A stretch of DNA of 12,405 nt from Deltaproteobacteria bacterium RBG_13_61_14 (lineage in GTDB: Bacteria > RBG-13-61-14): positions 30,067-42,471 of the forward strand of contig MGQK01000106.1 of assembly GCA_001797815.1 (NCBI GenBank), read 5' to 3'. A model generated the notes under the pieces. That model saw only the letters and a list, made by a program, of their open reading frames with translations. It did no database searches and had not been told where the DNA came from. Position 1 is the first letter of the stretch; each line of letters opens with the position of its first letter. Shown here piece by piece: positions 167-12,405 of this stretch. The position numbers were made by a program, and so were the translations under genes.

Positions 167-1159
167 ATGTCGAGCAACGCGGTGATCGTCGTCGGTGAGC
201 GGCTGGACGACCACCTCTCTTCCTCCACCCTGGAGATGCTAGGAGGCGGTCGGACCATAGCGGATCAACTGGGCGGCCCCCTGGCGATCGCGCTGTTGGG
301 CGAAGAAATGGAATCCCTGGCCCTGGAGTCCTTCGCTTATGGTGCGGACCGGGCCTATCTTCTCCAGGGCCCGAATTTGAACCACTACCAGCCCGAGGTC
401 TGGCTGAAGGTGCTGGCGGAATTCATAAGCGGGACCGGGCCGGAGTTGGTCTTGATCGGTCAGACATCGGTGGGCCGGGACCTCGCTCCGAGGCTGGCCT
501 GCCGGCTGGGCTCAGGTCTGGCCATGGACTGCACCCGGATCGAATGGGACCGGGATGCGGGCCGGGTGCGGATGTCGCGTCCGGTGTTCGGCTGCAAGGC
601 GGTGGCGGTGGAGGTCTGCTCATCGAAGCCGGCGCTAGCCACGGTCCGAGCCAAGGCGATGCCAGCCCGGGAGCAGGATGCTTCGAGGCAAGGGGAAGTG
701 GTGGCCGTATCGGTGGAGATTGACGACTCGATCCCGAAGAGCCGGACCGTGTCCCGCATCAGAGAAGAGATCAAGGGCGTGCTCCTGGAAAACGCCCGAG
801 TGGTAGTGAGCGGCGGCCGGGGTATCGGAGGATCGGAAGGCTTCGAGATGCTTGAGGCCCTGGCTGGAGTGTTCGGGGGGGCCACGGCCGCGAGCCGTCC
901 GCCCTGCGATGCGGGCTGGGTCCCTTCCTCCAAACAGGTCGGGCTCACCGGCAAGATCGTGCGACCGGACCTTTACCTGGCGGTAGCCTTGTCCGGCTCT
1001 TCCCAGCACATGGCCGGCTGCCAGGATTCAAAGACGATCATCGCGATCAACAAGGACCCGGAAGCGAATATTTTTTCCTTTGCCCACTACGGAGTAGTGG
1101 GCGATTACCGGAAAGTCATTCCGTCGCTCTGGGGGCGACTGAAGGAGAAGATGAAATAG
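167..1159 (+). CDS. etfA: Electron transfer flavoprotein alpha subunit
   Basis: A complete 330-residue protein of the usual ETF alpha length. The N-terminal ETF domain (about residues 4-165) includes GQTSVGRDLAPRLACRLGSG. The C-terminal FAD domain (about 205-325) carries the family signature in order: SGGRGIG (215-221), ASR (242-244), QVGLTGKIV (257-265), SGSSQHMAG (276-284), INKDPEA (294-300) and YGVVGD (308-313). These line the FAD site in characterised ETFs. It receives or donates electrons as a heterodimer with the upstream etfB product. GAGGG at 158-162 precedes the ATG. No N-terminal ferredoxin domain is present, unlike the EtfA of some lactate dehydrogenase-ETF complexes. In a FixABCX reading it would be FixB. 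Confidence 0.95.
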   Translation: MSSNAVIVVGERLDDHLSSSTLEMLGGGRTIADQLGGPLAIALLGEEMESLALESFAYGADRAYLLQGPNLNHYQPEVWLKVLAEFISGTGPELVLIGQTSVGRDLAPRLACRLGSGLAMDCTRIEWDRDAGRVRMSRPVFGCKAVAVEVCSSKPALATVRAKAMPAREQDASRQGEVVAVSVEIDDSIPKSRTVSRIREEIKGVLLENARVVVSGGRGIGGSEGFEMLEALAGVFGGATAASRPPCDAGWVPSSKQVGLTGKIVRPDLYLAVALSGSSQHMAGCQDSKTIIAINKDPEANIFSFAHYGVVGDYRKVIPSLWGRLKEKMK

Positions 1160-1272
1160 GCGGGACGGAAAGCTTGACGTGACCGGCGGAGCCATACGAG
1201 CTAGCAGTTGGAACTCCTGGCTCAGCCACATTCCGTTTCTGAACGGATGAAGGAGAATGGAGAGGTGGTGGC
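1160..1272 (+). other. Intergenic leader before the secreted-protein gene, with a small hairpin
   Basis: The largest gap inside the main gene run (113 bases). It contains an inverted repeat, TCCGTT (1232-1237), loop TCTG, AACGGA (1242-1247), and a looser one with GAGCCA near 1189 and TGGCTC near 1217. There is no T-run to make it an intrinsic terminator and no convincing -35/-10 pair. It may be only a leader or mRNA processing region. The ribosome binding site AGAGG at 1261-1265 serves the next gene. Confidence 0.3.
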
Positions 1273-2694
1273 ATGAGACATCATGGCCGCTTGGGTTCGG
1301 GCCTGATCCTGGTTTTACTTGTCAGTTGGTGCGGGCCCTTGCCGACGACGGCGGGAGCGGAGGGCCCCGGCCGGGCCCATGGCCGCTACTACGAGCCGGT
1401 GGAGGTTCCCGGTGAAGTGCTGGTCCCTTTGCAAGGCGCTTCTTTGAGCAAGCTTGCGGTATACTCGTTCCGAAAGGGAAGCTTCAGTCCCCTTCTGTTC
1501 CAGATTGATGAACTTACTCCGGAGGGGAGTTTCATCCTGACCCTCGGCCCGGAGGCCAATCCGGACGAGGGTAACGGCATTCTGGATCGGCAGGACTTGG
1601 TGGTTTTCATGGCCCGGGATGCCAGCGAAAAGGCCCCGGAGGGCCTGGCGCCGGAGGGCGCGGACCTGGCCGTTGCCGTCCAGTTGAAGGACCCGGTCAC
1701 GGGCGGACAGACCTGGGTGTACGTGGCGAGGTTCCCGACCGCTCCCTCTTTATGCGCGCTCAAGCCCGTTTCCGTGCTGATTGACCAGGGAGGCGTGTTC
1801 AACTTCCGGTTCCCCACCTATGGGTATGACGCGATTATCAACGAACAGGAAAAGAAGCCCATTCCCACTATTTTCATCAACAAGCTGTGGGTGACGCCGG
1901 AAGCCGGCGGCAACGGAAAGAACATCCTGGACCGGCAGAAGATACGAGGCGAGATCAGTTTTCTGGGCGGAATCATCAAGGTCCCCATCAATGAGAAGAT
2001 TGTAAGCGGCGGCGTGGTCGCCTACAAACCCGGGCCGGTCCGGATCCTCATCCACTCCACCATGTATCCCCTGCTCCCCCTTAAAATCAAGGGGCCGCGT
2101 TTTTACATTGACAGCGTCATGGTTGACACCCTCACCTTAACCACCACCATTGTGGACGTACCCTTCGATCCCGGATCTCTCATCACTGAAATGACCCTTT
2201 CCTTCGGCACCGACCTCTCGCCCGAGGCCAAGGGCATGCGCTATTACAACTCGACGCATCTCCAAGGCTTCCCGATTGACGGAGAAATGGACGAATCCGA
2301 GCGAAAATTCAATGAGGCCAAGGACGAGTGGCGCCTGGTCACTGGCGCGCAGGGGACCCAGATCCAGTTCACCAGGTTCGATCCCAAGTTCCTCACCGAC
2401 GGCAAGTCTTATTCCACGTATAGCGACAATGAAAAGGAAGAGCGGCCGCCGGAGAACTATCCCGGCGATATCGGGTACGCTTCGGATAAAATCGTGGTGA
2501 AAAGTCTGCCGGCCGGAGCTTATCACATCGAGACCTTCGGCTGCGTGCCGTATGCTTTTTATCGACCGGAAGGTCTGAACCGAGAATTTTTACAGGAAAT
2601 ATTACAGATCGCCACATCGCCTCTGGAGATTGAGGTCCAGGGGAAAAAGGCGCCAAACCAGGCGGGACAGTCTCGCGTGCTGGTGAAAAAGTAA
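1273..2694 (+). CDS. Secreted or periplasmic protein of unknown function
   Basis: A 473-residue protein I cannot assign to a named family. It starts with a signal peptide: basic MRHHGR, a hydrophobic stretch at about 8-20, and a likely cut after AGA (27-29). C20 is preceded by W, so it is not a good lipobox. The mature part looks mostly beta-strand. A segment at about 76-117 reads like a module: FQIDELTPEGSF, then an acidic NPDEGNGILDRQD loop (96-108), then LVVFMARDA. A related NGKNILDRQK occurs at 214-223, which may indicate an internal repeat. There are only two cysteines after the signal peptide and no transmembrane segment. AGAGG at 1261-1265 supports the ATG. It sits between the ETF genes and the FixC-like gene in the same direction, so it may be an extracytoplasmic partner of the module; that is inference only. 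Confidence 0.8.
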   Translation: MRHHGRLGSGLILVLLVSWCGPLPTTAGAEGPGRAHGRYYEPVEVPGEVLVPLQGASLSKLAVYSFRKGSFSPLLFQIDELTPEGSFILTLGPEANPDEGNGILDRQDLVVFMARDASEKAPEGLAPEGADLAVAVQLKDPVTGGQTWVYVARFPTAPSLCALKPVSVLIDQGGVFNFRFPTYGYDAIINEQEKKPIPTIFINKLWVTPEAGGNGKNILDRQKIRGEISFLGGIIKVPINEKIVSGGVVAYKPGPVRILIHSTMYPLLPLKIKGPRFYIDSVMVDTLTLTTTIVDVPFDPGSLITEMTLSFGTDLSPEAKGMRYYNSTHLQGFPIDGEMDESERKFNEAKDEWRLVTGAQGTQIQFTRFDPKFLTDGKSYSTYSDNEKEERPPENYPGDIGYASDKIVVKSLPAGAYHIETFGCVPYAFYRPEGLNREFLQEILQIATSPLEIEVQGKKAPNQAGQSRVLVKK

Positions 2695-2732
2695 CGTTTT
2701 CGGCTAAATGAATTCAGAGGAAGGAGATGGGC

Positions 2733-4166
2733 ATGGCGAAATACGACATTGCAATTTCCGGCGGCGGCCCCGGAGGGGCCTATGCGGCCAAGACCGCGGC
2801 CGAATTAGGACTCCGGGTGGTTTTTTTCGAGCGGGCCCGCAAGTCAGGCGAAAAGAACGCCTCCGGCTGTGGCTTGGGCCAGCGGTGGTGGAGGGATTTC
2901 CCTTTCATCATGGACGAGATTGTCGAGCTCGACTCCTACCGCGAAATCCACTTCTGCTACTTCAAGATCACCGATTCCGACGACCGCCTCGTCACCACCA
3001 TCTCCACGGCCAAGACCCCGAAGGATGACCGCCGCATCCAGCACAAGGACCACGGCTACGGCATGACCGGGACCAGCATCTACCGCTCGGACCTGGACCC
3101 GCTTCTCGCCAATCTCGCCTGCAACGCCGGGGCCGAGCTCCGGACCTCGACCCTGATCACCGACGTCATCAAGGAGAAAGGCCGCGTCTGCGGGCTGGTA
3201 ACCGAAAAGGGAGAGAAGATCGAGGCCGACGTGGTGATCGGCGCCGACGGGGCCCATTCCCTGGTGGCCATAGCCTCCGGGATCAGGAAGCGATGGAACA
3301 AGGACCAGATAACCCTCGTGCCCCAGCTCGATTTCTCCTGCAACGAGCAGAGGATGGATGACGTGATCGGTCCGGCGGAGTTGGTCTGGTTCGGGCCATA
3401 TTGCGGGGCCTACCAGGTGAACTTCCGGGACGGCTTTCATCTGGGCTTAGGCCAATGGCTGGACAAGTGGGACACCCGGCCGCTGGACATGGTGAAACGG
3501 ATTCTCAAGATCCCGGCTTTTCAGGCCATGTGCCGGTCGGTGGACGCCGAGCTCCGGGAGTACCAGGTGCACCTCCTGCCCTGGATGCCTCATCCGGGCA
3601 AGAGTTACGGAGACGGAGTCTTATTGGTCGGCGACGCCGGCGGCTTCCCCTGTCCGCTCGAGGGCGAGGGCATCTGGCACGCCTGCCTGACCGGCCGCAT
3701 GGCTGCCGAGACCGCAGCCGAGGCCATCGCCGCGGGCGACGTCTCCGAGAAGGCCCTTTCCGCTTATGAGCGCAAATGGAAACAATCCGCGGTTGGCCGC
3801 GAGTACGAGTTCGGTCAGGAGTACGTCAACCTCTGGAAGAACTCGGCCTTCGATCCCGAATTCATGAAAAAAATGGTCCTGTTCCTCGGCGAAGTCCAGT
3901 CCCTGAACTTCCCCAGCCCCGTGTTCGACTGGAGCGACGACCATATGAAGACCTTTAACGACCACTTGGGCCATCTGCTCGACCTCCTCCCCGAGCTTTC
4001 CGATTTCGCCAACCACAATATCGTGCCCCTGGGCAAGGGAATATCAACCGAGAACCGGGAAAGAATCGCGGGAATGATCAGCGGCTCGATCAAGAAGAAG
4101 CTGCCTCGCATCATCCCGCAAAGGGTTATTAGGTCCGTGGTCGGCAGATTTTTAGGACTGGCCTGA
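2733..4166 (+). CDS. FAD-dependent oxidoreductase, FixC / geranylgeranyl-reductase family (ETF-quinone oxidoreductase-like)
   Basis: A 477-residue flavoprotein. It has an N-terminal Rossmann motif SGGGPGGAYAA (9-19) ending in the acidic FFER (31-34), a second nucleotide-contact segment VVIGADGAHS (167-176), and a C-terminal FAD motif GDAGGFPCPLEGEGIWHA (300-317) followed by a helix of the type seen in FixC and ETF-QO. FixC proteins take electrons from the ETF and pass them, with the ferredoxin-like FixX, to quinone. The neighbours fit: etfBA upstream and an 8-Cys ferredoxin just downstream. No Fe-S domain is fused here, so the next gene would supply it. I chose ATG 2733 over ATG 2727 because GAGGAAGGAG (2717-2726) ends one base before 2727 but lies 6 bases before 2733. 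A different role in the geranylgeranyl reductase family cannot be excluded. Confidence 0.85.
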   Translation: MAKYDIAISGGGPGGAYAAKTAAELGLRVVFFERARKSGEKNASGCGLGQRWWRDFPFIMDEIVELDSYREIHFCYFKITDSDDRLVTTISTAKTPKDDRRIQHKDHGYGMTGTSIYRSDLDPLLANLACNAGAELRTSTLITDVIKEKGRVCGLVTEKGEKIEADVVIGADGAHSLVAIASGIRKRWNKDQITLVPQLDFSCNEQRMDDVIGPAELVWFGPYCGAYQVNFRDGFHLGLGQWLDKWDTRPLDMVKRILKIPAFQAMCRSVDAELREYQVHLLPWMPHPGKSYGDGVLLVGDAGGFPCPLEGEGIWHACLTGRMAAETAAEAIAAGDVSEKALSAYERKWKQSAVGREYEFGQEYVNLWKNSAFDPEFMKKMVLFLGEVQSLNFPSPVFDWSDDHMKTFNDHLGHLLDLLPELSDFANHNIVPLGKGISTENRERIAGMISGSIKKKLPRIIPQRVIRSVVGRFLGLA

Positions 4167-4177
4167 AAAGGCACGGC

Positions 4178-4195
4178 CGCCGATTTTTTTCGGCG
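4178..4195 (+). other. Intercistronic stem-loop with a T-only loop
   Basis: CGCCGA (4178-4183) and TCGGCG (4190-4195) form a perfect 6-bp stem around a loop of six Ts. It sits in the 50-base gap between the FixC-like gene and the ferredoxin gene. The T-run is inside the loop and not after the stem, so it is not a normal intrinsic terminator. It could stabilise the upstream message or adjust the relative expression of the two genes. Confidence 0.4.
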
Positions 4196-4216
4196 TCAAC
4201 GAAAGAGAGGAATAAA

Positions 4217-4522
4217 ATGGACCAAAGGGATACCAAGGGCGGAGATTTCACCGGGACCAGCCTCTTGAAACTGACTTTCAAGGTGGAGGGCGCCGATCCC
4301 GGAGAATTCATCACCTACGATCAATCCAAGTGCAACAGCTGCGGCGCTTGCTCTCTGGTGTGCTCGGCCAATCTGTGGGCGGTCAAGGACAAGGCCAAGC
4401 TGTCACCCCGCTACCAGGAGCTATGCCTGGAGTGCGCGGCCTGTTACGCTGTGTGCGAGAACGACGCCATCGCTTTTCGTTATCCCAACGGCGGCGCGGG
4501 GATCATCATCAAACACGGATAG
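4217..4522 (+). CDS. Ferredoxin-like protein with eight cysteines and a FixX-type tail
   Basis: A 101-residue protein with two full CxxCxxCxxxC motifs: C39, C42, C45, C49 in CNSCGACSLVC, and C70, C73, C76, C80 in CLECAACYAVC. This predicts two [4Fe-4S] clusters. The tail FRYPNGGAGIIIKHG (87-101) closely resembles the end of FixX proteins (YPxGGxGv). FixX works with FixC in electron transfer from ETF to quinone, in place of the Fe-S domain fused to ETF-QO. Position directly after the FixC-like gene supports this. Neither cysteine motif is followed by the proline common in bacterial 2[4Fe-4S] ferredoxins, and the long N-terminal part (1-38) fits FixX better than a free ferredoxin. AGAGG at 4206-4210 gives good spacing to the ATG. 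Confidence 0.88.
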   Translation: MDQRDTKGGDFTGTSLLKLTFKVEGADPGEFITYDQSKCNSCGACSLVCSANLWAVKDKAKLSPRYQELCLECAACYAVCENDAIAFRYPNGGAGIIIKHG

Positions 4523-4554
4523 CAAGGCGGAGGGCGCCGAAAGGAGGAAAACGC

Positions 4555-5238
4555 ATGGAAGGACCGACCAAGGTGGTTTGGGAGTTTCTGGAAACCGCGT
4601 TCCGCACGGGCGCGTTGGACGAGTTCCTCAAGCTGTCCAAGGCCGTGACAGATAAGAAGTACGAGAACCAGGCCGAGCTGTTCGCGGACTTGGAGGACGC
4701 GGTCAGCGCGATGGAGGACTTGACTTCCCTCGACCAGATATTGGTGGAGGCTTTCCGTATGATGCCTGCCCTTACCGATCCGGAAACGCTGGAAGGGATG
4801 GCCTTGTTGTTGTCCGCCGCAACTCCATATGTCAAGTCCTTCATGGACGCCCATAACCGGGACACCGCGCTCCTCGCCGAGAAAAAGGCCCGGCTCATGG
4901 CGGCTCTGCCGAAAGTATGGAAGGCGGTCGTCGCGCTGATCATGCTCAATTCCCCGGCGATCCTTTCCGCTCTGGGCAAAAAGTCCGCGTCCGAGTATGG
5001 CCAGAGTCTGGGCCGCGCCTTGAACGTCGTGGCAGGTTACGTCAATGACGTTCACGCCCGGGACCCGGAGGCCGTCTCCGCTTTCATGGCCGGGGTTTTC
5101 AAGGCGGTGGATGGGCAGCAGGTAGGCAAGACGGCGGATGTGCTCGCCCAGGCCTTCCTGGATCAGAGGCCCCCTCTCCTGAAATGGACCGCCGCCACGG
5201 CCGCCAAACAGGCTCGCAAGCGGCTGTTGGGCCGGTAA
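4555..5238 (+). CDS. Helical protein of unknown function
   Basis: A 227-residue protein I do not recognise. The open frame extends upstream to 4330, but the real start is almost certainly ATG 4555, preceded by AAGGAGG (4541-4547), because the upstream part overlaps the ferredoxin gene in another frame. The sequence is rich in Ala, Leu, Lys and Glu with few glycines, and looks almost wholly alpha-helical. It has no cysteine, so it should bind no Fe-S cluster. A hydrophobic stretch at about 121-140 (VWKAVVALIMLNSPAILSAL) could be a buried helix or contact the membrane. The C-terminus (216-227) is basic, AAKQARKRLLGR. Its place between the FixX-like ferredoxin and the first FAD oxidase suggests an accessory or docking role in this electron-transfer set. 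That is inference from position only. Confidence 0.8.
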   Translation: MEGPTKVVWEFLETAFRTGALDEFLKLSKAVTDKKYENQAELFADLEDAVSAMEDLTSLDQILVEAFRMMPALTDPETLEGMALLLSAATPYVKSFMDAHNRDTALLAEKKARLMAALPKVWKAVVALIMLNSPAILSALGKKSASEYGQSLGRALNVVAGYVNDVHARDPEAVSAFMAGVFKAVDGQQVGKTADVLAQAFLDQRPPLLKWTAATAAKQARKRLLGR

Positions 5239-5257
5239 CGCAAAGGAAAAAGAAGCA

Positions 5258-6712
5258 ATGGCTAAAAAAGAAGACCTGGCCCGGATTGTGGGCCCCGAGC
5301 GCGTGGTCACGGAAGAAGACGCGCTCATCGCTTACAGCTTCGACTCAAGCTTTGTCAAAGGCGAGCGGCCGGAATGCATTGTCAAGCCGCGAGGCCTCGA
5401 TGAAATCCAGCGGCTGGTGAAGCTCGCCAATGATCAGGGATTCGCTCTGGTTCCCTGCTCCTCCCACGGCCCGCACTCGCGCGGAGACACCGTGCCCACT
5501 GCCTCCGGCTCGGTCATCGTGGACCTTTCGGAGATGAAAGCCATCCTCCGCGTTGACCAGCGCAACAAGGTCGCCATGATCGATCCCGGCGTGACCTTCG
5601 CCGAGCTGCAGACCGAGGTCGAAAAGCAGGGCTTAAGAATCGAGATGCCCCTTCTTCCCCGGAAGACCAAGTCGGTCGTCGGAAGCCTCCTGGAGAGAGA
5701 GCCGACCACCGGGCCCAAATACAACTGGGACGCGATTGACCCTCTGTGTTGCCTCGAACTGGTTTTCGGCACGGGCGACTTATTTCGGACCGGCAACGCA
5801 GCGGGCCCCGGCTCGCTCGAGGAGCAATGGGCCTCGGGCCAGGCCCAGAAAATGCCCATGGGACCGGCCCAGACCGACATCGCCCGGTTGATCCAGGGGG
5901 CCCAAGGCTCGCTGGGTATCGTCACCTGGGCGACCATCAAGCTCGAACTCATGCCCGCGCTGAGCAAGGGCTTTTTCGTGGCCGGCCAAACTCTGGATGA
6001 ACTCATCGCCTTCACCTATCAAATCCTATGGCGCAAATTCCCCGACACCTGTCTCATCTTGAACAATGTCAACCTCGCCGCCATCGCCGGTCTGGACCCA
6101 AAGGACCTGCCGCCTTGGACGCTCCTATACTCCCTCTCGGGCCTCACCCATCTTCCGGAGGAGCGGCTCACTTACATGGAACAAGACCTGGCAGAGATCG
6201 CCGGCGAGTTCAAGGTCACGCCCCGGCGGAACCTGGCAGGGGTGGCTGCGGATCGAATGGTTGACCTGGCGAGCCGGCCCAGTGAGGAGCCCTATTGGAA
6301 GTTCCGGAAAAGAGGGGCCTGTCAGGACGTCTTTTTTCTGACCACTCTTGACCGGACGCCTGAATTTATCCAGGCCATGGACGGACTGACCCGGGAGTTC
6401 GGGTTGACCCGGGAAAATCTGGGCGTGTATCTCCAGCCCATTAGACACGGGACCGGGTGCCATTTGGAGTTCAACCTGATGTACAACCCCAATCGCCCGG
6501 AAGATTCCGCCCGGCTCCCGGCGCTCTTTGAACGCGCCAGTCGGGCCTGTCTGGATTTAGGGGGTTTTTTCTCCCGACCCTACGGCCTCTGGTCCGAGCT
6601 GGCCTACGCCAAATGTCCAGACACCGTCATGGCGCTCAGGAAAGTAAAAAACATCTTCGATCCTCGCGGAGTGATGAACCCCGGCAAGCTTTGTTTTAAG
6701 AAGGAGGCATAG
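5258..6712 (+). CDS. FAD-linked oxidase, GlcD / PCMH-type (first copy)
   Basis: A 484-residue flavoprotein of the vanillyl-alcohol-oxidase superfamily. The N-terminal FAD domain (about 38-232) has CIVKPRGLDEIQRLVKLAND, the VIVDLSEM strand (86-93), IDPGVTFAEL (108-117) and the diagnostic GAQGSLGIVTWATIKLEL (214-231). The C-terminus DPRGVMNPGKL (468-478) is the standard end of GlcD-like 2-hydroxyacid dehydrogenases. The pyrophosphate loop is unusual: PCSSHGPHSRGD (66-77) replaces the common glycine-rich loop and brings in two histidines. The segment after it, EREPTTGPKYNWDAIDPL (146-163), also differs from ordinary GlcD. The gene stops 3 bases before the Fe-S partner gene, like glcD/glcF and lactate dehydrogenase operons. 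Substrate unknown; a hydroxy acid or alcohol is likely. Confidence 0.88.
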   Translation: MAKKEDLARIVGPERVVTEEDALIAYSFDSSFVKGERPECIVKPRGLDEIQRLVKLANDQGFALVPCSSHGPHSRGDTVPTASGSVIVDLSEMKAILRVDQRNKVAMIDPGVTFAELQTEVEKQGLRIEMPLLPRKTKSVVGSLLEREPTTGPKYNWDAIDPLCCLELVFGTGDLFRTGNAAGPGSLEEQWASGQAQKMPMGPAQTDIARLIQGAQGSLGIVTWATIKLELMPALSKGFFVAGQTLDELIAFTYQILWRKFPDTCLILNNVNLAAIAGLDPKDLPPWTLLYSLSGLTHLPEERLTYMEQDLAEIAGEFKVTPRRNLAGVAADRMVDLASRPSEEPYWKFRKRGACQDVFFLTTLDRTPEFIQAMDGLTREFGLTRENLGVYLQPIRHGTGCHLEFNLMYNPNRPEDSARLPALFERASRACLDLGGFFSRPYGLWSELAYAKCPDTVMALRKVKNIFDPRGVMNPGKLCFKKEA

Positions 6713-6715
6713 GGC

Positions 6716-7984
6716 ATGAACGACCTGGCCACGCTTAAAAGCGACATGGAGGGCTGCTCGCGGTGCTCTCACTGCAAGTGGGTCCCCATGGCCCAGATCA
6801 AGAGTTGGCGGTTTGCCAAGATCTGTCCGTCGGTGGACCGCTATAACTTTCACGCTTACTCCGGAGGGGGTAAGCTGATCGCCTCCAACTCCATCCTCGA
6901 GGGCCGGAGCGAGGTCACCGACCCGGTGATGGAAATCGTCTACCGCTGCCAGCTCTGCGGCGCCTGCCAGGTCTCGTGCCAGGCCTACCGCGACGACATT
7001 GATCTTGCCGACGTCCTGCTCGCCCTGCGCGCCAAGTGCGTGACCGAGGGATACGTGCTCCCCGAACACCTGCTCATGATCGAGAGCATGAAGAAGGAGG
7101 ACAACACCCTGGGCCTGCTCAAGGCCGACCGGGGCGTCTGGGCCAAAGACCTCGATCTGATTGACATCAACACCCAGAAGGTGGAAGTCCTCTTCCATGC
7201 CGGGTGCAGGTATTCATACGACGAGGACCTCCGCTCCTCCGTGCGCAACTGGGTCCGGCTGTTCCGGAACGCGGGTGTGGACCTCGGAGCGGCCGGCCCT
7301 GAGGAATCCTGTTGCGGCGGCCGTGCTTTCGAGATGGGCTACCAGGGCGAGATGAAGAATTTTGCCGAGGACATGATCGGCAGGATCAAGGCCTCCGGGG
7401 CAAAGCTCCTGGTCACGCCCTGTTCGGATTGCTACTACACCTTCAAATACCTCTACCCTAAAAACGGCATGGATGCGGGCCTGCGCGTGCTTCATGCTGT
7501 GGAATACGCGGACCTGCTCATCAAGCAAGGCCGGCTCAAACTGGGCAAGTGCGCCTCCTTGCGGGTGACCTACCACGATCCCTGCCACTTGGGCCGGAGA
7601 GGAGAGATTTATAAGATGGGCTGGAACGGCGTCAATAAATTGCACCGGCCGGTCCGTTTCAAGCAGATGGGCAACCTAGGCATTTTCGATCCGCCGCGGA
7701 ATGTGATTCGGTCCATCCCCGGCCTTGACCTGGTCGAGATGGAGCGGATCCGGGAGTACTCCTGGTGCTGCGGCGCCGGCGGGGGCGTGCTGGAGGCTTT
7801 TCCGGACTTCGCCGACTGGACGGCTCGCGACCGGATCGAGGAGGCCAGGGCGGCCGGCGCCGAGGCGATCGTGACCGCCTGTCCCTGGTGCGAGAGAGTT
7901 TTCAAGGACGCGATCGCCGCCGGCGGCGACCCGATGAAAGTTTACGACGTGATTGATCTTATCACCATGTCATGGGGAGGATGA
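6716..7984 (+). CDS. Iron-sulfur oxidoreductase with two CCG domains (GlcF / HdrB-D type)
   Basis: A 422-residue Fe-S protein. The N-terminal half has two cubane-type motifs: C14, C17, C20 with C37-Pro, and C78, C81, C84, C88 (CQLCGACQVSC). Two CCG domains follow, each with a full set of ligands for a noncubane cluster: C164, C199-C200, C236, C239 and C290, C351-C352, C389, C392. The first has the usual spacing; the second has a longer loop (60 residues) before its CC pair. Such proteins pass electrons from a partner flavoprotein to a quinone, thiol or other carrier (GlcF, LutA, HdrB/HdrD families). No transmembrane helix is visible, so it should be soluble or peripheral. AAGGAGG (6701-6707) serves its start. 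It lies between two FAD oxidase genes with gaps of 3 and 1 bases, so translation is probably coupled. Confidence 0.9.
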   Translation: MNDLATLKSDMEGCSRCSHCKWVPMAQIKSWRFAKICPSVDRYNFHAYSGGGKLIASNSILEGRSEVTDPVMEIVYRCQLCGACQVSCQAYRDDIDLADVLLALRAKCVTEGYVLPEHLLMIESMKKEDNTLGLLKADRGVWAKDLDLIDINTQKVEVLFHAGCRYSYDEDLRSSVRNWVRLFRNAGVDLGAAGPEESCCGGRAFEMGYQGEMKNFAEDMIGRIKASGAKLLVTPCSDCYYTFKYLYPKNGMDAGLRVLHAVEYADLLIKQGRLKLGKCASLRVTYHDPCHLGRRGEIYKMGWNGVNKLHRPVRFKQMGNLGIFDPPRNVIRSIPGLDLVEMERIREYSWCCGAGGGVLEAFPDFADWTARDRIEEARAAGAEAIVTACPWCERVFKDAIAAGGDPMKVYDVIDLITMSWGG

Positions 7985-7985
7985 A

Positions 7986-9581
7986 ATGAAGCTTTTGCCT
8001 AAAGACGTTTACCGGGAGCTGGCGGACGCTCTCGGTGAGGAGAATATCTCGCAGGAGCCGGCAGTGCTGGACGGTTATGCCTGGCAGCCGGCCATGAACC
8101 TGACCAATCAGAAATGGATTCCCAGACCCGCGGCCGTGATTCTCCCGGCCACCACCGAGGAAGTCCAGACCATCGTCAGAATCTGCAACCAGCGCCAGGT
8201 CAAGTTCAAGGCCCATAGCACCGGCTGGGCCGCCTGGGGCGGGCCTTCCCAGGAAGGCGAGTTGCAAATTGACCTCCGCCGCATGAACCGGATCCTCGAA
8301 CTCGACGAGAAAAACAAGTTCGCGGTGGTTGAGCCTTATGTCTGCTGCGGCCAGCTCCAGTCCGAGGCCATGAAAAAAGGCCTTACCTGTCACATCATTG
8401 GCGCCGGACCTAACACTTCTGCTCTGGCCAGCGCCACCTCCGCATGGGGCTATGGCGGGACCGGACTCTCCACCGGCTATAGCGGAAGAAATGTGCTCGG
8501 CGTGGAGTGGGTCTTGCCCGATGGCGAGGTCCTGCAGCTGGGCTCCCCAGGCTCCCATGCCGGATGGTTCAGCGGAGACGGACCCGGGCCCGGCCTCCGC
8601 GGCATCATGAGAGGATTTTCCGGGACCCAGGGCTCGCTCGGAGTGTTCACCAAGTGCGCGGTGAAGCTCTTCCCTTGGTACGGTCCCCCGCAGCCCCGGG
8701 TCGAGGGGATCCTGCTCGACGTTGAAACCGATGTCCCGGAAACGGAAAAGATGTTTTTCGTGGTGGCCCCCAGTTTTAAAAAATACGCGGACATTTCCTA
8801 CGAGATCGGCAACGCCGAAATCGCCTACTGGTTTTGCCGCAGCCCGCTCAATGCCGGCGTAGATCTTTTCATGCCTCGGGCTGGGGATCGGCTCTTCGAG
8901 TCCAAACCCCTTCGGGCCTTGCTCAAGGCCTTCCAACATCTCGGTGTCGCCCTGCTCAGCTCCCCTTCCAAGCGCGAAGTCGAATATCAGGAGAAAGTCC
9001 TTCGCAAAATCACCGTCGAACACGGGTGCATCCTTCTCGATCTCAGCAAAGCCCCGGGCTACGGCTTCTGGTGGTGGCTCATGGGGGTCCGGTCTATCCC
9101 CACCGCCCTCACTTTCCGGGCTGGCGGAGACTTCCTCACCAGCTACGGCTCTCCGGTGGAATACGACAACGCCATCCGCCAGGCCGAGGTCGCCCAGGAA
9201 TGCAAGCAGAAGTACATTGACCAGGGCTATTTCAAGGACGACATGTCCGACATTGGGTGGGGCGGGATTTATGAAGGAACCGCCAACTGGGGACATTGCG
9301 AGACCGCGGCCATGTTCGATCGCCGCGACGGCCAAGCCGAGGGAAGGTTCAAGTACCTTGAGGATTCCGCTCGAACCACTATCGAGCACACCCTCGGCCT
9401 CGGCCTTTCCAATCTGCCGCCGGGCGCCTGGAAAGTATACGGGCCCCAACTCCACAACTACCATCTATGGGAGGCTCGGATAAAAAAGGCCTTCGATCCC
9501 AACTCGGTGGGAGACGAGCAATGGTACGTTCCTTCAATCGATGAAATCGAGCCAAAAGAGTCATCTTCGGATGAGCAATAA
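7986..9581 (+). CDS. FAD-linked oxidase, divergent PCMH-type (second copy)
   Basis: A 531-residue flavoprotein of the same superfamily as the upstream oxidase but clearly different in sequence. The FAD domain (about 45-230) shows WIPRPAAVILPATTEEVQTI, AHSTGWAAWGG (76-86), the strand DLRRMNRILELD (96-107), GYGGTGLSTGYSGRNVLG (155-172) with VEWVLPDGEVL (173-183), and GTQGSLGVFTKCAVKLFPW (213-231). The end, IKKAFDPNSVGDEQWYV, is a variant of the family's usual 'FDPnxxxNPG' tail. Architecture recalls the p-cresol methylhydroxylase / vanillyl-alcohol oxidase / alkyl-DHAP synthase side of the family more than GlcD. I chose ATG 7986 over the upstream ATG 7953 because GGGGAGG (7974-7980) lies 5 bases before it. 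It is the last gene of the run and starts one base after the Fe-S protein's stop. Substrate unknown. Confidence 0.87.
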   Translation: MKLLPKDVYRELADALGEENISQEPAVLDGYAWQPAMNLTNQKWIPRPAAVILPATTEEVQTIVRICNQRQVKFKAHSTGWAAWGGPSQEGELQIDLRRMNRILELDEKNKFAVVEPYVCCGQLQSEAMKKGLTCHIIGAGPNTSALASATSAWGYGGTGLSTGYSGRNVLGVEWVLPDGEVLQLGSPGSHAGWFSGDGPGPGLRGIMRGFSGTQGSLGVFTKCAVKLFPWYGPPQPRVEGILLDVETDVPETEKMFFVVAPSFKKYADISYEIGNAEIAYWFCRSPLNAGVDLFMPRAGDRLFESKPLRALLKAFQHLGVALLSSPSKREVEYQEKVLRKITVEHGCILLDLSKAPGYGFWWWLMGVRSIPTALTFRAGGDFLTSYGSPVEYDNAIRQAEVAQECKQKYIDQGYFKDDMSDIGWGGIYEGTANWGHCETAAMFDRRDGQAEGRFKYLEDSARTTIEHTLGLGLSNLPPGAWKVYGPQLHNYHLWEARIKKAFDPNSVGDEQWYVPSIDEIEPKESSSDEQ

Positions 9582-9613
9582 GAAATAGCGGTTCCCCCCG
9601 GGACTATGCAATT

Positions 9614-9730
9614 GTGGCTAGGTGCTCAGGACACAGGCTGGCTGCTAAGGACAAAGAAAAAGCCCTGGTCGAGCTTGGTGAACTTGTCACGATCTTGCTT
9701 AATCATGGGATTTTGGTGGTGGAAGAATGA
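9614..9730 (+). pseudogene. Possible gene remnant: short open frame with no good start
   Basis: A frame open from 9575 to TGA 9728-9730 whose second half looks protein-like: LAAKDKEKALVELGELVTIL, then LNHGILVVEE, an amphipathic helix then a strand. There is no ATG and no ribosome binding site; GTG 9614 is the only plausible start. The beginning is disturbed by an imperfect 20-base tandem duplication (9616-9635 and 9636-9655). I read it as the C-terminal remnant of an unidentified gene near the mobile-element scar. It may also be chance. Confidence 0.25.
9616..9655 (+). repeat. Imperfect 20-base tandem duplication
   Basis: GGCTAGGTGCTCAGGACACA (9616-9635) is followed directly by GGCTGGCTGCTAAGGACAAA (9636-9655); 16 of 20 bases agree. 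The unit is not a multiple of three, so it would shift any reading frame across it. Confidence 0.55.
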
Positions 9731-9795
9731 CTCTTCAAAAAGGGGGGAGGGGATCGGGTGAAAAAGAAGGTTTTTTTCGTTACATTTCTGTATAA

Positions 9796-9850
9796 AAATG
9801 TGCCAGAAATGTGCCAGGATTTTGAAAAAAGGGTGGGTTTTGGCACATTT
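9796..9850 (+). repeat. Two tandem AAATGTGCCAG repeats plus an inverted copy (possible integrase arm sites)
   Basis: AAATGTGCCAG occurs at 9796-9806 and again at 9807-9817, with no gap. A 10-base inverted copy, TGGCACATTT, lies at 9841-9850. They stand about 95-150 bases before the tRNA fragment, with an integrase remnant on its other side. Short direct and inverted repeats flanking the crossover core are how tyrosine integrases of the lambda type mark their arm-binding sites. The repeats are seen directly; the arm-site role is inferred from the layout. Confidence 0.5.
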
Positions 9851-9942
9851 TATGGACTTAATGGAAAGCGGTAACCGACCCGATTTGTCTAATGGTTTCG
9901 CTAAGTTATTGGTTTTACTGGTTATTCGCCAAAACGACCTGA

Positions 9943-9992
9943 ACGGACTTTTAATCCGTTGGTCGCGGGTCCGAATCCCGCACGGCCCTCCA
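9943..9992 (+). tRNA. 3' half of a tRNA-Lys(UUU) gene (attachment-site fragment, not a working tRNA)
   Basis: The fragment folds as the 3' half of a tRNA. Anticodon stem ACGGA/TCCGT (9943-9947, 9955-9959) closes the 7-base loop CTTTTAA with anticodon TTT (Lys). Variable loop TGGTC, T-stem GCGGG/CCCGC (9965-9969, 9977-9981) with loop TCCGAAT, and the acceptor 3' strand ACGGCCC with T and then CCA (9990-9992) follow. It matches the known bacterial tRNA-Lys pattern (TTGGTCGC...GCACG). No 5' half is present: the expected GGGCCGT and a D-arm are missing upstream. The T-loop has C where the nearly invariant T55 should be, and the discriminator base is T. Fragments like this are left by elements that integrate in the 3' half of tRNA genes. 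Confidence 0.85.
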
Positions 9993-10005
9993 TAAAATTA
10001 AGGGG

Positions 10006-10338
10006 TTACGGAACACTCTCTTTTCTGTCCGCTTCCCCATGTGTAATATTTGTGCAATTTTTTCCAATCGGCTTGTCGGTCACCACCCTTTTCAGGTCGT
10101 CTTCATCCACGGAATCGTAGCGCATCAGCATCGCCATTGTCTTGTGCCCGGTGATCGCCATGATCGCTCGGTCCTGCTTGCCGGCTCTTCTCATGTTGGT
10201 GACGAAGGTATGCCTAAAGTCATGAAACCGGAAGTTCTCAATCCCGGCCAACTGGCAAGCTCGCTTGAACGAACGTTTCACCGAGTCATTGGTAAATCTT
10301 GGAGCCACCCCAATGTAGACCGTGCCAGGCTTATGCAA
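10006..10338 (-). pseudogene. Truncated tyrosine recombinase (phage-type integrase), C-terminal catalytic part
   Basis: About 110 residues of the catalytic domain, against roughly 350-400 in a full integrase. With the TTG at 10338 as residue 1, it shows H39-x-x-R42 (in FHDFRHTF), H65 (in ITGHKT) and the nucleophile Y74 (in LMRYDSV). The first catalytic arginine and the whole N-terminal DNA-binding part are missing. Upstream the frame is closed by a stop at 10366-10368, and no integrase-like sequence follows on either strand to 10548. There is no good start codon. Its stop lies just 14 bases from the CCA end of the tRNA-Lys fragment, typical for an integrase beside its attachment site. It is very probably inactive. 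Confidence 0.85.
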
Positions 10339-10976: not shown

Positions 10977-11022
10977 TAGTGTATTTTATTGCTGAATCCT
11001 TTTGCGGTCGGGGCGGGAGTTC

Positions 11023-11664
11023 ATGCCAGTATCGGGGTACACGAAATTCGGGGTTGGTCTGGATGAGGCGGCCAAGCGGGACCATATCCAGGCGGCGGCG
11101 AAAAAGGTTTTCGGCCGGGTGGGCTATCACCATGCCAGCGTAAAGGAGATCATCTCCGAAGCGGGCATCTCCCGTCGCACCTTTTACACCTATTTCCGCA
11201 GCAAAGAGGATGTGTTGATCCAACTGGTGGATACCTTCATCGAGGAGGTCAAACGGACCAAAGAGCTGGAAACGCCGGATGAACTCCAAAGCACTACCGA
11301 AGTCCGCGACCAGGTCCGGCGATTGGCCTGGGCGCTGGTCGAGGTGATCCTGAAAAACCGCGAACTCATCAAGCCCCTCTTTGAAGGCATGGTCCTCGAC
11401 GACGACGTGCTCACCCCCCGCAGCGAGAACCTCTTGAAAATTTTCCAGACCTTTATCCGCGAGTATCTTGAAGCCGCGCAGGCGAAAGGTTTTGCCCACG
11501 AAGGGGACGCGGAATTGATAAGCGGCATGCTGCTGGGGATGTATATGGAGACGGTCCGGAAATATATTATCAAGCAAAAGCGCCCCCCCCTGGATCGACT
11601 GGTCAAGGAAATTCTCGCTCTGCTCGAGCGCGGCTTGCTCAAGCCGGGCCCCACCCCCTCGTAA
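11023..11664 (+). CDS. TetR-family transcriptional regulator
   Basis: A 213-residue protein, normal TetR length. Residues 16-63 form the DNA-binding domain: helix AAKRDHIQAAAKKVFGRVGY, then the helix-turn-helix ASVKEIISEAGISRRTFYTY (38-57) followed by FRSKEDVL, the family hallmark. The rest (about 70-213) is a helical ligand domain; its ligand cannot be told from sequence. I chose ATG 11023, with GGGAG (11015-11019) before it, over an in-frame TTG at 11002. TetR proteins usually repress their neighbours and release on ligand binding. A perfect palindrome in the promoter of the next gene is the obvious target. By context the ligand could be an acyl-CoA or carboxylic acid of the pathway, but this is a guess. 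Confidence 0.93.
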   Translation: MPVSGYTKFGVGLDEAAKRDHIQAAAKKVFGRVGYHHASVKEIISEAGISRRTFYTYFRSKEDVLIQLVDTFIEEVKRTKELETPDELQSTTEVRDQVRRLAWALVEVILKNRELIKPLFEGMVLDDDVLTPRSENLLKIFQTFIREYLEAAQAKGFAHEGDAELISGMLLGMYMETVRKYIIKQKRPPLDRLVKEILALLERGLLKPGPTPS

Positions 11665-11843: not shown

Positions 11844-12405
11844 ATGAAGCAACAAATTCTCAAACCGAACCCGAATCCCACCCGGTTTCCCATCCGCCCG
11901 CTCTACGGGCTGGATCCGGCGGAAGCCAACGACATGAGCGAGCGGTGCAAGTGGGAGCTGGACAACGCGGAGTACTACGTGGTTCTCTTTTTTCCGCAGG
12001 ACAAGGAGATCGTCAAGCGGTTCATCCCGCCCCCCCTGAAGCTCATCCCGAGAGTGCCGCTCGTCAATATTTTCGTGCAACAGCTCACCTTGAACGGCGG
12101 CCGGGACAATGACTCCTTGAACTACGGATACCTGGAGAACATCCTCGCCGCGCTGGTGAGCTACAAGGACACGATGGGGGTTTATCCGATTGCCATTCAC
12201 ATCGGGTCGGACATCGGGTGCATCATCGGCCGGGAGATGTTCGGCACGGCCAAGAAGGTGGGCCAGTTCGAGTACCAGCGCAACGGGGAAAAGTTTTTCT
12301 GGAAGGTCAAGCGCCGGGGGATCACGCTCATCGAGTTCCGGGGCGAGATCGGGGACGAGGACGCCAATCCCGAGAACATCCTCAAAATCATGGAACACCC
12401 CACCT
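11844..12405 (+). CDS. Acetoacetate decarboxylase family protein (partial, runs off the right edge)
   Basis: The first 187 codons of a plus-strand gene. GGAGGTGA (11832-11839) precedes ATG 11844. The key segment is IIGREMFGTAKKVGQF (127-142): in acetoacetate decarboxylase the GRE...KK motif carries the adjacent lysines of the active site, the second activating the first, which forms a Schiff base with the substrate. Here they are K137 and K138. Upstream, YLENILAALVSYKDTMGVYP (97-116) fits the family's 'Y.E..i' strand. Members of this wide family also act as aldolases, dehydratases or hydratases, so the reaction is not certain. It is separated from the TetR gene by 179 bases that hold the promoter and palindrome, and is probably under that regulator's control. 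Confidence 0.85.
   Translation, partial: MKQQILKPNPNPTRFPIRPLYGLDPAEANDMSERCKWELDNAEYYVVLFFPQDKEIVKRFIPPPLKLIPRVPLVNIFVQQLTLNGGRDNDSLNYGYLENILAALVSYKDTMGVYPIAIHIGSDIGCIIGREMFGTAKKVGQFEYQRNGEKFFWKVKRRGITLIEFRGEIGDEDANPENILKIMEHPT

Follow-up and report, generated by a model that had tools for sequence, protein, structure and literature searches.

The window analysed here, i.e., the whole 12,405-nt stretch of DNA at C106:30067-42471, belongs to a 95% complete draft genome of 4.74 Mb in 132 contigs. On the plus strand, positions 167..9581 carry genes for an electron-transfer flavoprotein alpha subunit, a FAD reductase, a ferredoxin, FAD-linked oxidases, and Fe-S reductase-like proteins, all named from an NCBIfam scan in which the matches fell below the equivalog cut-offs. 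These genes are the cargo of what we call the left island. They are followed by the right-end module of that island (9598..9931, plus strand), which consists of a decayed gene end and an arm region, by the 3′ half of a tRNA-Lys(UUU) gene (9944..9992, plus strand), and by a C-terminal tyrosine integrase remnant on the minus strand (about 10006..10338; C106:40147-40479), which represents what is left of the right island's integrase. Within the right island, the first cargo gene that could be recognised encodes a TetR-family regulator (11002..11664, plus strand; PF00440, E = 8e-15), and an acetoacetate-decarboxylase-like protein (11844..12404, plus strand; PF06314, E = 3.5e-20) runs off the window. 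Further proteins of the right island include a kinase-like ABC1 protein, a peptidase, an epimerase, an MFS transporter, and PIG-L and URO-D proteins. No phage structural genes were found in the subset of proteins scanned. Similarly, a PHROGs search with six unassigned C106 proteins gave 0 matches, so there was no sign of a prophage in the six proteins tested. In the low-GC stretch to the left of the window, C106:10979-18421 contains a reading frame of 2480 aa with matches to SpvB, TcdB-middle, FG-GAP, and RHS repeats.

The intact tRNA-Lys(UUU) gene and its 3′ halves

Window positions 9944-9992 are identical (49/49) to the last 49 nt of tRNA-Lys(ttt), from the anticodon stem to the CCA, and the E value of 1e-24 in a within-genome BLAST excludes a chance match. 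The fragment is the true 3′ end of the tRNA and not an internal piece. The first-pass annotation had described an isolated 3′ half of tRNA-Lys(UUU) at 9943-9992. Its end, its identity, and its isolation were all confirmed, and no 5′ half was found near the fragment, but position 9943 lies one base outside the identity. ARAGORN made 0 tRNA calls in the window, and the Rfam tRNA model gave the fragment 25.5 bits against a cut-off of 29. The intact tRNA-Lys(TTT) gene that the annotation had anticipated does exist, but at C120:3880-3956 on the minus strand of a separate 7.9-kb contig and not on the contig of the window. With 71.6 bits, it ranks ninth of the 41 tRNA matches in the genome. No second intact tRNA-Lys(ttt) was found among the tRNA genes read; these made up ∼33 of the 41 matches in a draft of 95% completeness, and the remaining matches were mostly longer and Leu/Ser-like.

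Another half copy was found at C106:82525-82569 (45/45 identical), 42.5 kb downstream of the half in the window and in the same orientation, where it adjoins the housekeeping gene pbp1A. According to BLAST, the 3′ half of tRNA-Lys occurs in these three places only in the 4.7-Mb genome, and the 45 nt at window 9948-9992 are common to all three copies.

The fragment has C in place of T55 and a discriminator T, which had previously been taken as signs of lost selection. Both bases are present, but the intact 71.6-bit gene also carries both of them (T-loop TCCGAAT, discriminator T). They were therefore inherited from the target gene and are uninformative on decay. In a script-based comparison of the tRNAs whose T-loops could be read cleanly, in which a few were mis-registered, only the tRNA-Lys(UUU) at C120:3880-3956 had C55, and the other cleanly read tRNAs had T55. 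tRNA-Lys(CUU) and several other tRNAs of the genome share the discriminator T, and C55 tRNAs also exist in viral contigs. It is conceivable, though improbable, that the attP of an island brought C55 into the only tRNA-Lys(UUU) of the host, in which case integration would have rewritten an essential gene, whose displaced copies all carry the base as well.

Integrases, arm-type repeats, and island edges

The C120 contig encodes an intact tyrosine integrase of 343 aa (PF00589, E = 8.9e-25), in which the Arg, Lys, His-x-x-Arg, His, and Tyr motifs were recognised by reading. It lies on the CCA side of the tRNA gene and is convergent with it, its 3′ end being 71 bp from the CCA. An excisionase-like HTH_17 protein (phrog_66) and a repressor-like HTH protein are encoded upstream of it. 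An integrase remnant on the CCA side of the half-tRNA, as annotated earlier, is indeed present in the window (PF00589, E = 3e-14); it keeps the His-x-x-Arg, His, and Tyr motifs but has lost the N-terminal two thirds. The remnant shares 63-73% aa identity with the C120 integrase, and the longer alignment includes 2 stops. A second remnant, at C106:28481-28735, matches the C120 integrase at 93% DNA identity across 151 bp. Both C106 remnants are antisense to the half-tRNA, as in the layout on C120, and the integrase ends differ by ∼25% in DNA. Furthermore, the sequence AAGGGGTTACG after the CCA is common to the half-site in the window and C120. When the integrase was used as a query, the genome collection gave one distant match (28% identity), and among the matches listed from the phage and plasmid collections the identity was ≤ ∼31%, with no record reaching 60%. 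No integrase of the C120 family was found in two genomes of the same order.

The ∼334 bp upstream of the half in the window have a counterpart of 85% identity upstream of the 82.5-kb half (C106:82176-82508). By pattern searches of the genome itself, a paired repeat, TGTGCCA-N4-TGTGCCA, with 11-bp spacing was identified in this module (9799..9820, plus strand). This 22-nt pair, TGTGCCAGAAATGYGCCAGGAT, has only three sites in the genome (search with ≤ 3 mismatches; control, 0), namely C106:39865 and C106:82377, in the two right ends, and C120:3813, next to the C120 tRNA; one base is changed in the 82.4-kb pair. An inverted arm-type repeat, TGGCACA, was found by direct reading at 9841..9847 (plus strand). 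Looser pairs are present at both integrase stubs (C106:40106 and 28441); the former, TGTGTAA-N4-TGTGCAA (10040..10057, plus strand), begins 48 nt past the CCA, at the left end of the right island. From their sequence, we read these pairs as putative arm-type sites to which the integrase may bind. A 96-bp segment at C100:22455-22550, upstream of tRNA-Leu(TAG), also matches the right-end module (73%), and no integrase match was found near it.

The right island extends over C106:40062-82569 (42.5 kb) and has its own tRNA fragment, with the C-terminal stub as its only integrase. The left island, of ∼11.6 kb, extends from the integrase stub at ∼28.5 kb to the half-site in the window, which is its own fragment. 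Both lengths are within the 2-200 kb of the Islander length criterion. A decayed half-site to the left of the 28.5-kb stub was also sought, but the best candidate had an alignment score of 38 against a random mean of 36.7 and was rejected. A third island starts at the C120 tRNA, and the low-GC region C106:1-28480 (47.6%) could belong to it. The outer flanks hold housekeeping genes, namely ilvD and a metallo-hydrolase gene on one side and pbp1A and a tRNA nucleotidyltransferase gene on the other. The GC content at the C120 site is 63% outside and 50% inside, and the change at the right edge is small (61.5% outside, 58% inside). The intact tRNA and the junction sit on different contigs, and the ends of C120 and C106 do not overlap. 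In the two same-order genomes, which were the closest available for comparison, no tRNA was found beside pbp1A; tRNA-Lys/pbp1A synteny in these genomes was considered as support and set aside as uninformative.

The probable junction between the islands and its rival readings

The entry of islands at tRNA genes is a common and well-understood route by which bacteria gain foreign genes. We consider it very probable that window positions 9944-9992 are an attachment-site scar, left where two related islands of the tyrosine-integrase type adjoin in a stack at one tRNA-Lys(UUU) gene. A tandem junction is the most likely reading because there are three half-sites, arm repeats beside all of them, and integrase ends of the same family. 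The first-pass annotation had proposed site-specific integration, which is supported by the third half-site in the same orientation, the arm repeats at every half-site, and the adjacency of the intact tRNA to a full-length integrase of the same family. It had also named two layouts, an attP or a tandem-island junction; the same evidence favours the latter, and the former is unnecessary. In each round of integration, a crossover at the anticodon loop would cut the tRNA, which would be restored next to the integrase by a replacement 3′ half from the attP of the island, and the previous 3′ half would be displaced to the far end of the island. Repeated rounds would give the order tRNA, integrase, island, 3′ half, integrase, island, 3′ half, and chromosome, with C120 and C106 as the presumed two ends of one array. 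We infer the exact crossover point from the two displaced copies, in both of which the tRNA identity starts at the anticodon stem/loop.

A tandem duplication of a single island by homologous recombination would also create an internal junction, and the right ends are indeed homologous. However, the interiors of the two islands are unlike in the Pfam and NCBIfam scans, and the right ends are 15% and the integrase ends ∼25% (DNA) apart, yet the 45-bp core is identical. This combination is expected of related islands that were acquired independently and share a target, and it fits separate insertions, so we regard duplication as very unlikely. The half-site could instead be the attP of one element, integrated or circular, but the chance of this appears slight. 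A half-tRNA beside an integrase end is locally attP-like too, and the viral contigs L091 and L096 carry isolated tRNA-Lys halves near an integrase, but the right element ends, 42.5 kb away on the same contig, at a third half-site, and what lies to the left of the half in the window is a right end homologous to the 82.5-kb one.

It is also highly doubtful that the fragment is in use, whether as a tRNA-half RNA or as the end of an expressed and selected 65-aa ORF (window 9798-9995). A similar 66-aa ORF lies over the other right end (C106:82378-82578), but direct reading showed that a 1-bp indel puts the ORF start out of register between the copies and that many of the changes between them alter the amino acid; the arm repeats in the DNA can explain the conservation. 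Finally, truncation by itself would suit an ordinary decayed tRNA pseudogene or a kept fragment with no involvement of integration. This reading can practically be dismissed given the 49/49 identity, the abrupt limits of the fragment at the anticodon stem and the CCA, and its position between an integrase and the arm repeats, an arrangement that recurs at the other sites. For the stacked islands, the half-sites give exact ends, and the genome is the sole member of its family among the genomes compared. The oxidoreductase cluster that makes up most of the window and the acetoacetate-decarboxylase-like cluster that follows it are probably acquired cargo.

Known systems and other tRNA-integrase sites

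The structure is of a known kind and represents ordinary island accretion (PMC4383910; PMC9897764). The Islander set comprises 3919 tRNA/tmRNA islands, with 125 tandems of two or more and 4 of three or more, and the anticodon-type crossover is the commoner class (2083/3919) (PMC4383910). The array proposed here resembles that set in its intact tRNA, displaced 3′ fragment, tRNA-side integrase, anticodon-type crossover, and tandem arrangement. In contrast to the set, only decayed C-terminal stubs remain of the inner islands' integrases, and the tRNA is on a different contig from the fragments. In PYG1 of Pyrococcus yayanosii, a partial tRNA likewise marks the far end of the island, and the repeat is 44 bp, compared with 45-49 bp here, but there is one island there and at least two are stacked here (PMC9897764). 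Tandem island copies at one attachment site are also described for Salmonella genomic island 1 (PMC2297512), although this island targets trmE and not a tRNA gene (PMC8409611).

A second tRNA-integrase pair was observed in the genome: tRNA-Arg(CCG) at C111:22249-22321 is followed after ∼149 bp by a different tyrosine integrase (22470-22949; L087). Additionally, an integrase reading frame at C61:9692-10690 (L074) contains a TAG codon in frame and ends upstream of a tRNA-Arg(TCG) that is truncated by the contig end (C61:10818-10878); this is probably another island edge. The tRNA-Lys 3′ halves of the viral contigs (L091:12658-12705 and L096:3098-3149) have C55 and an integrase close by that points toward the cut side of the half-tRNA, which indicates that targets of this kind have been used independently.
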